Below are positions 2,277 through 12,269 of a DNA stretch of 23,187 bases, piece by piece. Within the stretch, counting starts at the first letter, position 1. The number at the start of each line of letters is the position of its first letter. Made by a program: the position numbers and the translations under genes. This DNA is from a virus: positions 1 to 23,187 of IMG/VR virus record IMGVR_UViG_3300033144_006472; one strand, written 5' to 3'. The notes under the pieces are model-generated. The model had not been told where the DNA came from, ran no database searches, and saw only the letters and a list, made by a program, of their open reading frames with translations.

Positions 2277-3263
2277 ATGGCAACAATAATTACTAACAAA
2301 TATGGGATTTCTGACGCTATTGTAAAAGCGTGTCAAGTAGATAATCACCGAACAATGGGTGATATATCAGTTACTCAACTTCTTGACGCTCCCCAAATTA
2401 GAATGCTTAAAAAACAGCACGACACCGAAGAGGATGTTGTAGATAGGATATGGTCCTTAATGGGTACTGCTGTCCACTATGTTGTTGAACTTGGTGAAAT
2501 TCAATATAGAGAGGCACGACAGCTTTTGGAGGCTGCAGAGGTTCTAATGAAGCATGATCAGGAAAAGGCTGCTAAATGGATGTATAATCTTATAGAAGAG
2601 CTTTATCCAGACCATAAGAATAAAGATGTTTTAACTGAGACTACTCTATCTGTAACTATAGATGGAATGACTGTCTCAGGAACTTTTGATAGGTTCACTA
2701 AATCCTTGAAGCTATTAGATGATTATAAGAACACTTCAGTTTGGGCTTATATGAATCCTGAAGCTATTAAGAAATGGGTAGGGCAGCAGAATTACTACGC
2801 ATACATGTTAAGAGAAAATGGACATGAGGTGGAAAAATCACAAATCACCGCAATATTCCGAGATTTCTCTCCAGGGAAAAGATTTCAGAAAGGTTACCCT
2901 AAGACACCTGTGGTAACTATCCCTATCAAACTACAATCTCATGAGTTCATTCATGATCACATGAGAAAAAGAATTAAGCTCCATAAGGATGCGGAATTAC
3001 ATGGTAAAATACCTGAGTGCACCACTAAAGAGATGTGGGCCACAGCAACAAATTATGCTGTCACAGCTCCGGGTAGAAAAAGAGCCATCAAAGTATTCCC
3101 TTCTCGTGGATTGGCTGAAGCCTTTGTAAAAGGTGATGGAGCTGCTTATGAAGGAGCTTACATTCAAGAGAGGCCGGGTGAGCATAAAAGATGTGACAAC
3201 TATTGTCCTGTAGCTCATGTGTGTCCTCAAAACAAGAAAAGATTAGAAAATATTAACGCTTAA
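2277..3263 (+). CDS. PD-(D/E)XK nuclease with Cas4/AddB-like cysteine cluster
   Basis: The 328-aa protein resembles RecB/Cas4-family nucleases. Residues 62-70 (MGTAVHYVV) hold the family's histidine H67. D138 in SGTFDRF and D149-x-K151 in LLDDYKN give the catalytic D...DxK core, and Q170/Q171 with Y173/Y174 fit the later Q-x-x-Y motif. Four cysteines, C248 and then C306, C310 and C316 near the end (RCDNYC...VC), could hold an iron-sulphur cluster as in Cas4 and AddB. The likely role is processing DNA ends in recombination or replication. It has its own promoter and is followed, after a structured gap, by an SMC-like ATPase that may be its partner. No helicase domain is fused. Confidence 0.82.
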   Translation: MATIITNKYGISDAIVKACQVDNHRTMGDISVTQLLDAPQIRMLKKQHDTEEDVVDRIWSLMGTAVHYVVELGEIQYREARQLLEAAEVLMKHDQEKAAKWMYNLIEELYPDHKNKDVLTETTLSVTIDGMTVSGTFDRFTKSLKLLDDYKNTSVWAYMNPEAIKKWVGQQNYYAYMLRENGHEVEKSQITAIFRDFSPGKRFQKGYPKTPVVTIPIKLQSHEFIHDHMRKRIKLHKDAELHGKIPECTTKEMWATATNYAVTAPGRKRAIKVFPSRGLAEAFVKGDGAAYEGAYIQERPGEHKRCDNYCPVAHVCPQNKKRLENINA

Positions 3264-3344
3264 CAGCAGGACAGTTAGACGATAACCAAATGAAGGCTTG
3301 AGCTCTGTTGGTACTACGCCATCACAGAAGCCTGATTCCTGCTG
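3264..3344 (+). ncRNA. structured intergenic element 2 (81 nt, three-way junction fold)
   Basis: CAGCAGGA (3264-3271) pairs perfectly with TCCTGCTG (3337-3344). Within it, GTTA (3274-3277) pairs with TAAC (3283-3286). AGGCTT (3294-3299) pairs with AAGCCT (3328-3333), and that arm extends through CTGT/ACAG (3305-3308 with 3324-3327) and TGG/CCA (3309-3311 with 3319-3321) around a 7-nt loop. The result is a clean three-way junction directly after the nuclease stop codon. A TTTCTTTAA tail follows, so it might work as a terminator, leader or small RNA. I do not recognise a known riboswitch or ribozyme core. Confidence 0.5.
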
Positions 3345-3364
3345 TTTCTTTAAAACAAAATTAA

Positions 3365-4702
3365 ATGAAAAACGAAGGATTAAAAGTATTAAGTGTAGAG
3401 ATAGAAAACTTTAAAAATATCTCTCAGAAGATGGTAGAATTCAATGGGCGTTCCGCCATGATTGTTGGTAAAAATGGTGCAGGTAAATCAAGCTTTATTC
3501 AAGCTGTAGGTTCTCCGACAAATGCTAAACTAACACCATCAAAGGCAATAAAAGAAGGTGAAGAGAAAGCTCTGATCGAGATTGTTGTTGCTGGCAACCT
3601 CCATGGTGAGGAGCACCACTACAACATTGGTGTGCACTTTACCGAAAAGAATCAGAAAGGTAAGGTAGTTATCCTTGATAAGGATGGTGGTAAGATTCAG
3701 GGTGCCAGAAAAATGGTTGAATCTATCGTTGGTAATATCGGATTTGATATTCAGGAGTTCATCAACTTAGGATTGACTAAGGATGGCAAGGTGTCAAAAC
3801 CTGGTGTTAGAGAGCAGATTGAGATCCTTAAAGGGTTTTTACCACAGGAAGCTAAAAACAAGCTCACAGAGCTCGACAATGAGAAAGAGGAGATATATAG
3901 CAGTCGTGCTGATATCAACCGAGACATCGATAGTTACAAGGCTAAATTGAAGGACATCGAAATGGATCCTGAAGAAATCGAAAAGTACTCCGAGAAGAAG
4001 GATGATACCGAGATTAAGGAAAAGATGGGAAAGATTGGTGAGGAGATATCTAAGTATGATGGCGTGAAGAGTAAACTTAGCATGAAGAAGGATAGAAAGA
4101 ACTATGTTGATGAGGAGATAGATAAGCTTAAAAAGAAATTGGAAGAGTTTGAGTCTGAACAGAAAGAACTTACTAATGACATTAAGAAAGGTGACGCTTG
4201 GCTTGAAAAGAACGAGAGACCATCTATGGAAAACCTTTCCAAGGAGCTTGAAGAGATTTCAGAGCATAACAAGATGTTCGACAAGGTTAATGCATGCAAA
4301 GATATGGACACCAAGCTTAAAGAGGCTGAAAGTAAAGCTGAGACTTATACTGAAAGGTATAAAGCTATTGATGGAGAGAAAGCTGAGGTGTTCAAAGCAA
4401 ATCCTTTACCGGTTAAAGACCTTACATTCTCCGATGACGAGATTCTTTACCAAGGTCTTCCATTTAACGAGAACCAACATCCATCATCGACCATCATTGG
4501 TGTAGGATTGAAGATAGCTATGGCTATGAATCCTAACTTGAGGTTATTGATCATCAAGGATGGCTCGTTGTTGGATAAGAAGATACTGAACTTCGTCCTT
4601 AAAATGGTTGAGAAGAAGGGTTACCAAGTTCTTATCGAGGTTGTGGACTTCGATGGAGAGAAAGACCTTCAAGTTGAGTTTATTGAATCAGAAGTAGAGT
4701 AG
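3365..4702 (+). CDS. SMC/Rad50-like ATPase (AAA_23 type)
   Basis: The 445-aa protein has an N-terminal ATPase lobe with Walker A at 35-42 (GKNGAGKS), a long charged coiled coil at roughly 160-345 rich in K, E, D and L, and a C-terminal lobe. That lobe has a reduced signature-like segment near 371-381 (SSTIIGVG) and a hydrophobic strand followed by K398-D-G-S-L-L-D404 where Walker B and the D-loop should be. Rad50/SbcC proteins bind DNA ends and regulate a nuclease partner. Here the protein is short and lacks a recognisable zinc hook, like other phage versions. The Walker B acidic pair is partly altered (K-D), so catalysis may be unusual. The neighbouring PD-(D/E)XK nuclease is the obvious partner. 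Confidence 0.8.
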   Translation: MKNEGLKVLSVEIENFKNISQKMVEFNGRSAMIVGKNGAGKSSFIQAVGSPTNAKLTPSKAIKEGEEKALIEIVVAGNLHGEEHHYNIGVHFTEKNQKGKVVILDKDGGKIQGARKMVESIVGNIGFDIQEFINLGLTKDGKVSKPGVREQIEILKGFLPQEAKNKLTELDNEKEEIYSSRADINRDIDSYKAKLKDIEMDPEEIEKYSEKKDDTEIKEKMGKIGEEISKYDGVKSKLSMKKDRKNYVDEEIDKLKKKLEEFESEQKELTNDIKKGDAWLEKNERPSMENLSKELEEISEHNKMFDKVNACKDMDTKLKEAESKAETYTERYKAIDGEKAEVFKANPLPVKDLTFSDDEILYQGLPFNENQHPSSTIIGVGLKIAMAMNPNLRLLIIKDGSLLDKKILNFVLKMVEKKGYQVLIEVVDFDGEKDLQVEFIESEVE

Positions 4703-7047: not shown

Positions 7048-8174
7048 AAATAAAAGTAAACAGAAAGAGCTTAAGTACTTGCTTAACAACACTTTCGGTA
7101 GCACTTCCAACGAGGAATGTAATACCTATTAACTATAACTTCTTATTCGATATACAAGAAGATGGTAAATGTGATGTGTACGCAAGGAATAGTGAGCTTC
7201 AGATGAAAGGGTTTATGACTGTGACAACCAAGGAAGCGGTGAAAATTTGCGTTCCAGGCACCACACTTATGAATACCATTAAACTGCTAACAGAAGAGGA
7301 AATTAATTTCAATTACAATCCAGAGAAATTTATCTTAAATATTTCTGCAGGGAAAAAGAAGTACAAGCTTACCGGTGAGAATCCTAAAGACTATATACCT
7401 CAGCAAGTTCCTGAAGACGCTATAGAATACAAAAATTTAGCGAGTAAGATTATACCTCACATAACCACTTTGTCAAAGGTGGTTGATTGGAAAGATATGA
7501 GGCCTCAGCTTCAAGGAATTACTTTCAATGTAATAGATGGCAACTTAATCCTTTCGGGGACTCATGGGGCGTTCTTCTTTTGTAGGTGCTTAGTAGATAC
7601 GAATGTTGATGATCCGTTTAGCTTCGTTCTTCCCAAAGAATGCTCTATGGCTCTTGCTCAGATGAAAGGACATGGCGACATTGAAATGTTTCTTGGAAAG
7701 AGAGCTGTATTTTTTAAAGTAGAAGGATTTGAGTTAAGGTCATCGCTTGTTGAGGTAACAAGTGTTATTGAGATAGATAAGTATTTCGTTTATAACGATG
7801 ATCAATATTTGATTATGGATAAGAATGACCTTGGTATGGCTACTAAAAGGATGGTGAATTACGCCAACTCTGATGAAGCAACGCTAAGGATAGAGGTAAT
7901 GGGTGACGAGCTTAAATTGTCGAGTGATAATGAGGATTTTGGTAGAGAAGCTGAAGAGATTCTTGATGTTTCTAACCATGAAAATAAAGATATGGTTGTA
8001 GGCCTTAATATGAGGTATGCTGCAGCTATCATGGGTGCTATTGATTCGGACAAGATAAAAGCATTTTTCGTTAACTTTAACAAGCCTGTATTCTTTCAGA
8101 ATGGAGATGGTAACGAAAGTAGTCAAGTATGGGGTTGTGCTCCAATAATTCTAAAAGAACATCTTAATGGATAA
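7044..8174 (+). CDS. dnaN: DNA polymerase sliding clamp, DnaN-like
   Basis: The 376-aa length and three-part layout match the bacterial beta clamp. The N-terminus has the pattern of domain 1 (K..L...L......ALPTRNVIPINYNFLF), followed by VPGTTLMNTIKLL, YKLTGENPKDYIP and then QLQGITFNVIDGNLILSGTHG, which corresponds to the domain 2 strand 'L.GI.F...L...ATDG'. Domain 3 contains NMRYAAAIMGAI and NKPVFFQ near the end. The usual C-terminal MPMRL is replaced by APIILKEHLNG. The protein would encircle DNA and tether polymerase or other partners. A phage carrying its own beta-type clamp is less common than one using the host's. It overlaps the primase gene by 8 nt. Confidence 0.85.
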   Translation: MKIKVNRKSLSTCLTTLSVALPTRNVIPINYNFLFDIQEDGKCDVYARNSELQMKGFMTVTTKEAVKICVPGTTLMNTIKLLTEEEINFNYNPEKFILNISAGKKKYKLTGENPKDYIPQQVPEDAIEYKNLASKIIPHITTLSKVVDWKDMRPQLQGITFNVIDGNLILSGTHGAFFFCRCLVDTNVDDPFSFVLPKECSMALAQMKGHGDIEMFLGKRAVFFKVEGFELRSSLVEVTSVIEIDKYFVYNDDQYLIMDKNDLGMATKRMVNYANSDEATLRIEVMGDELKLSSDNEDFGREAEEILDVSNHENKDMVVGLNMRYAAAIMGAIDSDKIKAFFVNFNKPVFFQNGDGNESSQVWGCAPIILKEHLNG

Positions 8175-9099
8175 CATATTCATAAACATATTCAACGGTG
8201 TCAGGGATTACGATACTTCCAAAAAGATTAGCGTCCTTGACGTTATCTGGAAAATTTCTGAAGGTGAGTGGAAGAATGCAGTTGAGAGGTACAGAAGAGA
8301 ATCAGATAAGAAGACAAGAGAAAACTTGAAGAAAAACCTTCCTGCAGTTACGTTTGCAGGTTCTCTCGATGGAAAAGGAAGGCTTGATGAAAATGTCTGT
8401 GATTATTCTGGCATCGTTGTTTGTGATATTGATAAGATATCGAGAGCAAAGCTTAGTTCGTACAAGAACAAACTCAAGCAGGATGGCTACGTATTAGCCT
8501 TCTTCGAGTCTCCATCTTACGGATTAAAGGTTTTGATCAAGGTTAATTCTGAGCTTAAATTCCACAAATCTCACGCCTTCAGGCAGATTGAAGAATACAT
8601 GAAGTATCACCACGACATCAAGATAGATCCATCTGGCAAGAACCCATCGAGGTTATGCTTTATGAGCTTTGATCCCGATATGTATTATAATGACGAAGCT
8701 CATGTTTTTGAGGTAGACACTACTATCGACTATGAGGAGATTGAGAAGCGGAGTGCCTTTACCTCTGTGAACCAAGGTGGTGATGATCTTGAGATTTCAA
8801 ATGACTCTCAGCATGTTTTTGATACTGCTGTGAAATGGGTTTCCAATAGCAAGACCGGTTCCTATCACAAAGGAAACAGGAACAATTTTATCTTTCACTT
8901 ATCTTGCCTATTGAATAGGGCAGGCATGCAACAGGAGCTTGCTGTTGTAATGATACATGGAAGGTATTCAAGCCTGGAACATTCTGAGATTAAAAATACT
9001 GTTCGTAGTTCTTACCGCCACAATGCTGCAGAGCATGGTACTAAGCCTATCTACAGGAGACAAAGTAATACTAACCAACAAACATTTGACTTATTATGA
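8167..9099 (+). CDS. VirE_N/BT4734-type primase
   Basis: The 310-aa protein matches the VirE N-terminal (PF08800, BT4734-like) group related to archaeo-eukaryotic primases. The catalytic pattern is visible: D87-I-D89 in VVCDID, S115-P-S-Y-G-L-K121, and D154...SRLCFMSFDP at 154-170. Residues 214-290 form a helical PriCT-like region (GNRNNFIFHLSCLLNRAG, EIKNTVRSSY). The likely job is primer synthesis at the phage origin or fork. There is no fused helicase domain. The gene overlaps the clamp by 8 nt, and the protein ends QQTFDLL, which resembles a hexapeptide clamp-binding motif. The next gene starts in its stop codon (ATGA). Confidence 0.85.
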   Translation: MDNIFINIFNGVRDYDTSKKISVLDVIWKISEGEWKNAVERYRRESDKKTRENLKKNLPAVTFAGSLDGKGRLDENVCDYSGIVVCDIDKISRAKLSSYKNKLKQDGYVLAFFESPSYGLKVLIKVNSELKFHKSHAFRQIEEYMKYHHDIKIDPSGKNPSRLCFMSFDPDMYYNDEAHVFEVDTTIDYEEIEKRSAFTSVNQGGDDLEISNDSQHVFDTAVKWVSNSKTGSYHKGNRNNFIFHLSCLLNRAGMQQELAVVMIHGRYSSLEHSEIKNTVRSSYRHNAAEHGTKPIYRRQSNTNQQTFDLL

Positions 9100-10771: not shown

Positions 10772-11075
10772 AGCGAAAATAAGAGATTTAATAAGCAAAC
10801 ATCCAGAAGATGAAAATATAGTTCTAATGGATATTATGAATGAACTTATAGACCTTCAGGTACCACTCGGTAAGCTTGAGGTGTTTAATTACAAAGAAAG
10901 TGTCACAGAGGCTGTAAAAAGACTATCTGTTGTTGAGGAGAAGCTTAAACTATTTAAGCATAGGATCCGAAACGAAGTTAGGACTGAGGTTATTGATTGG
11001 CACAACAATAAGCCTAAGCAAAAAAGGAATATGAACCCTAATAGCTTAGCTAATTTAAAGAAGAAAAAAAATTAA
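10761..11075 (+). CDS. hypothetical protein, 104 aa, GTG start
   Basis: The best start is GTG at 10761 (MSNEAK), overlapping the previous gene by 11 nt; the next in-frame ATG would remove 22 residues. The protein is helical and charged, with a heptad-like segment at about 50-75 (VKRLSVVEEKLKLFKHRIRNEV) and a very basic tail (KPKQKRNMN...KKKKN) that could contact nucleic acid. No family recognised. It is followed after 25 nt by the SSB-like gene. Confidence 0.65.
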   Translation: MSNEAKIRDLISKHPEDENIVLMDIMNELIDLQVPLGKLEVFNYKESVTEAVKRLSVVEEKLKLFKHRIRNEVRTEVIDWHNNKPKQKRNMNPNSLANLKKKKN

Positions 11076-11670: not shown

Positions 11671-12009
11671 ATGTCAGGAAAAAGATATTCTGTTGCGTTA
11701 AGCAATAAAAAAGACATGAACGAGCTTGTAAAGGTTATCTGTGAAAAGACAGGCAAGAACGAAGAAGCTCTAAGAGATAAATTCAAAATGGTTAAACAAG
11801 CTGATACAAAAACAGTATTAGACCTTTGTAAGTTTTTGAAGATTAAGTTTACCATGGATCCTACGTCAGGCAAAAACATGGTTTCGGTTGAAATACCATT
11901 CGATAAGATGGTTGATGAGATAGAGCCTGATACAAAAGAAGAAACTGAAGAGGCTCAGGAAATACTTCCTCCTGGCGAAGAGCCATCGGAAGATGATGAT
12001 CCGTTTTAA
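11671..12009 (+). CDS. hypothetical protein with SSB-like acidic tail
   Basis: Start at ATG 11671 (MSGKRYS) gives 112 aa. An earlier ATG at 11623 is rejected because it reads through the terminator hairpin. Residues 1-75 form a small basic-to-mixed helical and beta domain (ALSNKKDMNELVKVICEKTG, KFLKIKFTMDP). The last 30 residues are strongly acidic and the protein ends EDDDPF, like the SSB tip. It could compete with or mimic the SSB tail for partners. No family recognised. It is the last rightward gene and meets the convergent leftward operon 2 nt later. Confidence 0.72.
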   Translation: MSGKRYSVALSNKKDMNELVKVICEKTGKNEEALRDKFKMVKQADTKTVLDLCKFLKIKFTMDPTSGKNMVSVEIPFDKMVDEIEPDTKEETEEAQEILPPGEEPSEDDDPF

Positions 12010-12011
12010 TA

Positions 12012-12269
12012 TTAACCCATTTCAGGCATAGAAAGGTCAGGAGCTCCTCCACCTTTCTTTGTCTTATTAAACAAGTACATGGATTTCATTTGAGCCATTG
12101 CTTTGTCTAACTCCTCTTCAGAGTCTCTATAGACTTTCTTTCTGTTGAAGTGCTGCCTACTATCTAAGCTGTTTGGCTTTTCTTTTACTTCATCATACTC
12201 TAATATAAAACCATTATCTGCTGGTCTTAAGCTGATGTATTTGTATTCTGTTGTTTTTCCTAAACTCAT
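12012..12269 (-). CDS. hypothetical protein, 85 aa, last gene of the late operon
   Basis: I choose the ATG at 12269 (MSLGKTTEYKYISLRPADNG) over the upstream ATG at 12323, because the longer start overlaps the previous gene by 26 nt and its extra residues look unconserved. The protein has a strand-rich start, then a charged part (RKKVYRDSEEELDKAM) and a helix with AQMKSMYLFNK, and ends in a Gly/Pro-rich tail. Similar small proteins are common in phages of this group, but I know no function. Its 3' end contains a hairpin that may serve rightward transcription. Confidence 0.65.
   Translation of the reverse strand: MSLGKTTEYKYISLRPADNGFILEYDEVKEKPNSLDSRQHFNRKKVYRDSEEELDKAMAQMKSMYLFNKTKKGGGAPDLSMPEMG
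12031..12065 (+). terminator. possible terminator for rightward transcripts, inside a convergent gene
   Basis: GAAAGGT (12031-12037) pairs with ACCTTTC (12051-12057), enclosing the palindrome AGGAGCTCCT (12039-12048). The rightward strand then reads TTTGTCTT. The T-rich tail favours rightward termination just after the last rightward gene; the opposite strand lacks such a tail. Confidence 0.5.

Follow-up and report, generated by a model that had tools for sequence, protein, structure and literature searches.

What occupies the short spacer between two recombination genes of this phage, and would it act within their common message or as a molecule of its own? The window is the whole analysed stretch of 23,187 nucleotides (IMG/VR record IMGVR_UViG_3300033144_006472, positions 1–23,187). 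Its + strand carries a gene for a PD-(D/E)XK (Cas4/RecB-like) exonuclease of 328 aa (2277–3263; Pfam PF12705, phrog_2139) and a gene for an SMC/Rad50-type AAA ATPase of 445 aa (3365–4702; Pfam AAA_15, AAA_23 and SMC_N; phrog_1499), and the element between them lies on the same strand. The names that a preliminary description had given to the neighbours, a Cas4-like nuclease and an SMC-like ATPase, were upheld by Pfam, by PHROG and by the nuclease alignment, in which C248, C306, C310 and C316 are invariant with an Fe–S-type pattern; four invariant cysteines are what is expected of a Cas4/AddB-like Fe–S nuclease. The gap between the two genes contained no ORF of at least 40 aa and was thus taken as noncoding. 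A gene for an HNH/I-HmuI-type homing endonuclease (1099–1701) adjoins the nuclease operon, and a related gene is found at the same place in the sister phage (L153).

The element was delimited from the sequence and the minimum-free-energy (MFE) fold as positions 3262–3346 of the + strand (85 bases), a three-way junction. The complementary segments and the junction previously proposed at 3264–3344 were reproduced by the MFE fold of that segment (−26.0 kcal/mol). The closing stem was perfect, as described, but measured 10 rather than 8 bp: the 5′ arm of P1 (AACAGCAGGA, 3262–3271) is the perfect complement of its 3′ arm (TCCTGCTGTT, 3337–3346, followed by TCTTT), and the pair probability of the helix exceeds 0.9, also within longer transcripts, where the other two arms stay near 0.7. 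With ten base pairs P1 takes in the final two bases of the TAA that ends the nuclease gene (3261–3263), so that the element does start at this stop codon but not directly after it; its 3′ end lies 18 nt upstream of the ATPase ATG (3365), close to the earlier figure of about 20 nt. The 4-bp arm was likewise recovered (P2, 3274–3286; GTTA/TAAC with the 5-nt loop GACGA; pair probability ∼0.69), but the long arm (P3, 3294–3333; outer-helix pair probability ∼0.75) was folded as 5+5+4 bp with bulges of 5 and 2 nt and not as 6+4+3 bp with a bulge. P3 consists, in order, of AGGCT/AGCCT, the 5-nt bulge TGAGC, TCTGT/ACAGA, the 2-nt bulge TC, TGGT/GCCA and the loop ACTAC. The junction strands are CA (J1/2), CAAATGA (J2/3) and GAT (J3/1), and the GC content of the element is 0.47, against 0.37 for the window.

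The fold was compared with those of shuffled sequences. For 3264–3344 the MFE gave z = −3.1, with 0 of 200 shuffles as good; with 500 shuffles the values were z = −2.68 for this segment (6/500 as good) and z = −3.56 for 3262–3346 (2/500 as good). Equally stable folds, which the preliminary description had named as grounds for dropping the proposal, were thus rare, and its view that such a structure seldom arises by chance was confirmed as to an excess, but the excess was only moderate once more shuffles were used. Among 4000 shuffles, three produced a closing helix this strong anywhere in the 104-nt stretch. When both strands of the window were scanned in 86-nt segments, the element ranked 13th of 1158 by z and eighth by energy. 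We consider it rather unlikely, though possible, that the fold is a chance or neutral one in a noncoding spacer, for example a functionless insertion remnant. The twelve segments of the same 23-kb sequence with lower z values speak for this, as do the absence of the element from five of five syntenic relatives (described below) and the fact that picking a finding by its fold favours good folds. Closed multi-hairpin segments also occur in the gaps of unrelated phages (15 seen against 7.25 expected in 48 kb of gaps); as they are about twice as frequent in phage gaps generally as in shuffled sequence, the element is not exceptional. Against a chance origin stand the rarity among the shuffles of both the perfect 10-bp closing helix and the MFE, and the compactness of phage genomes, the window containing only three gaps of at least 70 nt. 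The fold is accordingly real as a prediction, though not extraordinary. An unusual abundance of closed-stem junction RNAs in this phage group as a whole was considered and rejected, since the excess in the group (six seen against 2.75 expected in 16.4 kb of gaps) resembled that in the unrelated phages. Elsewhere in the window, where the early (+) and late (−) gene blocks converge, a low-z structure (12002–12087, z = −4.6) and a hairpin flanked by T-rich sequence (12031–12057) probably form a bidirectional terminator.

Homologues of the element were sought by several routes. Rfam gave no match in the window, the best permissive matches (E values of 2.9 to 8.2) all lying below the gathering threshold, in agreement with the earlier remark that no matching RNA class was known. 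No tRNA or tmRNA was found in the window by ARAGORN or by Rfam, and the element has neither a T-arm nor a CCA end. A pattern-plus-stem scan of the window for hammerheads (CUGANGA and GAAA core, three stems) was also negative. Blastn with the element against phages and plasmids returned no relative down to E = 10, a short-word blastn over all fetched loci gave no match, and the exact inverted-repeat pattern had four matches over IMG/VR, all with unrelated inner sequence. A single-sequence covariance model detected no homologue in ∼312 kb of relatives and related loci, which took in most of the five relatives' contigs in full, or in 25 more distant phage records; the best match outside the element itself had E = 4.9, and because the model was built from one sequence, strongly diverged homologues could be missed. 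The element is present as a single copy in the window and is absent from the contigs of the relatives.

This distribution also bears on whether the feature is an element of the DNA, such as a small transposon-like inverted repeat or a protein-binding site, instead of an RNA. The P1 arms do form a perfect inverted repeat that flanks 65 bp, and relative to the phages L121 and L159 the element looks like an insertion. Single occurrence and absence from the relatives are at odds with such an origin; moreover, no target-site duplication was apparent on inspection of the flanks, the inner arm P3 pairs as well, and the + strand folds better than its complement (z = −1.95, 10/200 shuffles as good), so that we regard a DNA element as quite improbable. 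A retron-like reading of the closing repeats (as a1 and a2) was rejected because no reverse transcriptase was found among the ten neighbouring proteins scanned.

Scanning IMG/VR initially with single proteins, or with alignments of distant relatives, yielded no syntenic locus. Relatives sharing the gene order were recovered with a specific motif pattern and then with alignments that included the first such relative. Five were obtained, with mean protein identities over the nuclease, the ATPase and the SNF2 helicase of 66% (L153), 49% (L159), 47% (L154), 44% (L156) and 43% (L121); L153 was placed by the tree as the sister phage with full support. The nuclease–ATPase gaps measure 631, 18, 1197, 158 and 13 nt, respectively, and in none of them, that of the sister phage included, was a homologue of the element detectable by blastn or by the covariance model. 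No covariation is therefore seen, and the data give no support to a conserved riboswitch.

Riboswitches with three-way junctions include the purine and THF classes, among others, and the element resembles them in its three helices and in its regulatory position upstream of a start codon. A riboswitch or attenuator in which ligand sensing sets the expression of the ATPase could use the 5-nt and 7-nt single-stranded segments as binding sites. It differs from the known classes in that Rfam gives no match, even at permissive thresholds, and in that orthologous ATPase genes in the five relatives are not preceded by it, which disfavours a ligand sensor. An alternative pairing with the 3′ coding end of the nuclease gene (3202–3211 with 3266–3275) has a predicted probability below 0.08, on which ground a translation-dependent switch involving the nuclease 3′ end was also rejected, and the ATPase leader is predicted not to be sequestered. 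The ligand-sensing role suggested earlier is therefore unsupported, the five relatives offering no homologue in which compensatory changes could be seen, and a regulatory RNA of this kind is very improbable.

Several of the same gaps do hold structured RNA of unrelated sequence. That of L154 contains a 12-bp closed two-arm RNA beginning 3 nt past the nuclease stop codon (2792–2872; helix in 0 of 4000 shuffles, z = −5.7), an RNA candidate of ∼206 nt with a 16-bp closing helix and several inner hairpins (3195–3400; z = −5.9, 0/150 shuffles, no Rfam match at the gathering threshold), a tRNA-like sequence without an anticodon arm (∼3466–3528; 31.7 bits) and a further closed-stem segment of 12 bp (3530–3612). 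In L156 a 10-bp closed segment starts 8 nt past the nuclease stop codon (3580–3692; 20/4000 shuffles), the overall fold of which is not significant (z = −1.4). The gap of the sister phage L153 carries a 56-aa ORF, a tRNA-like gene (3601–3706; Rfam tRNA, 50.5 bits, with a 39-nt anticodon loop), further structured sequence and, before the ATPase gene, a hairpin plus T8 terminator. Counting the present phage, four of six have structured RNA in this spacer, which looks variable and prone to hold such RNA. A third odd tRNA-like gene, with ∼45 nt between the D- and T-arms, was noted in L191 (19238–19335, minus strand); two of the three, those of L153 and L154, sit in the nuclease–ATPase gap, and all three might be decoys or non-decoding RNAs. 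Another stretch of the sister phage (L181, ∼7605–9098; contig G001, 27405–28898) is a gap of ∼1.5 kb without a 60-aa ORF; two further phages, L191 and L189/L190, have gaps that resemble parts of it.

The contents of these gaps raise the possibility that the element is a stand-alone, trans-acting small RNA, cut from the operon transcript and held by its terminal helix, and one of several unrelated RNAs exchanged at this position. The tRNA-like genes of L153 and L154 and the closed-stem RNAs of L154 are consistent with this, as are a gap size that, at a single locus, varies between 13 and 1197 nt and a terminal helix joining both ends, which is typical of processed stable RNAs. In none of the collections searched was a homologue found, however, so that there is no sign of a shared or selected RNA; the element itself is not tRNA-like, and neither a promoter nor a terminator belonging to it was recognized. 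On balance a stand-alone RNA seems rather unlikely. More doubtful still is a broader version, in which the gap would be a docking site for swapped, unrelated structured RNAs and the element a trans-acting cargo that might, for example, decoy or inhibit a defence nuclease of the host or an RNA-processing enzyme; the docked molecules would then comprise closed-stem RNAs, terminators and tRNA-like RNAs that lack a usable anticodon, a grouping that we hold to be equally doubtful.

The explanation that we favour, tentatively and at close to an even call, is that the element acts in cis, as an RNA structure between cistrons of a polycistronic early phage mRNA. What the data show is its anatomy: the sequence, the predicted fold and its excess over chance, the position at the stop codon, the lack of a counterpart in the relatives and the A-rich leader downstream. 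Once the nuclease–ATPase message has been made, the branched stem would form behind the last ribosome to leave the nuclease cistron. The nuclease message could then acquire a 3′ boundary that is protected or processed, whether through endonuclease cutting, through blocking of an exonuclease or because transcription partly terminates at the weak U-rich tail TTTCTTT. The stem would also uncouple translation of the ATPase from that of the nuclease; in the relatives with gaps of only 13–18 nt, translation of the two is probably coupled. The exact sequence of such an element would matter little, so that in relatives the corresponding position can be empty or occupied by other structures. Together with the position at the stop codon, this independence of exact sequence suits a boundary of mRNA decay or processing, or partial 3′-end formation, combined with translational insulation of a gene pair that would otherwise be coupled. 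The unrelated closed-stem structures just past the same stop codon in L154 (2792–2872) and L156 (3580–3692) lend support to the cis-acting reading, as does the hairpin with its T8 terminator ahead of the ATPase gene in L153. Like any intercistronic structure, the element may also set the ratio of nuclease to ATPase protein.

Translation of the ATPase would start from an A-rich leader without a Shine–Dalgarno sequence (3347–3364), which has A at −6, −12 and −13. Positions −11 to −5 are predicted to be unpaired with a probability of ∼0.9–0.99, and −13/−12 with one of ∼0.45–0.5. A similar A-rich leader is the part of the gap that is retained before the ATPase ATG in relatives without the RNA. In Bacteroidota, both secondary structure and A residues upstream of the start codon modulate translation initiation, and −6, −12 and −13 are Kozak-like positions at which A raises initiation in Flavobacterium johnsoniae (PMC6847099); the host of this phage is only inferred.

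Partial termination after the stem is possible. As in an intrinsic terminator, a GC-containing stem is followed by a U-rich stretch (TTTCTTT); it differs from one in its 65-nt branched loop, and a standard scan called no intrinsic terminator in 3000–3600. A relaxed long-loop rule (65-nt loop) does include the element but gives ten hits on the window's + strand, which makes the U-rich tail weak evidence.

For processing, the closest parallel is with the RNase III sites of phage T7-type early mRNA, which recur between several genes. An irregular hairpin between co-directional genes, the mark of such sites, is present here by position and predicted fold, co-transcription being assumed from the gene order. 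The element shares with them a branched or bulged hairpin of similar size, placed between co-transcribed early genes past a stop codon and before the next leader. It differs in that there is no homology, in that T7 has several such sites whereas one is found here in 23 kb, in that the helical path is broken by the three-way junction and in that cleavage here is only putative. Phage hammerhead ribozymes, which may cleave long phage transcripts to give gene-length mRNAs (PMC3088659), provide a second comparison: they too are three-helix junctions in phage intergenic regions for which transcript processing has been proposed, but the element lacks the CUGAUGA and GAAA core. A textbook hammerhead core was seen in an intergenic gap in a distant part of the sister phage's contig (L181, ∼10799–10865, + strand; IMGVR_UViG_3300031669_000035, ∼30599–30665), reading AGTTAA CTGATGA GCCTATAAAGGC GAAA CAAAGAGAC...TCTCTTTG TC TTAACT, with stems I, II and III of 6, 4 and 9 bp; Rfam makes no call on it at the gathering score.

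As judged from its predicted fold and its distribution, the element is a lineage-specific orphan intercistronic RNA structure. If functional, it would add one more lineage-specific intercistronic RNA to those of phage operons and would show that what separates two conserved recombination genes can be replaced. The locus is a more interesting lead than this one molecule: tRNA-like and other closed-stem RNAs occupy the same spacer in related phages, and this could bring to light cargo made of RNA, in contrast to protein cargo.
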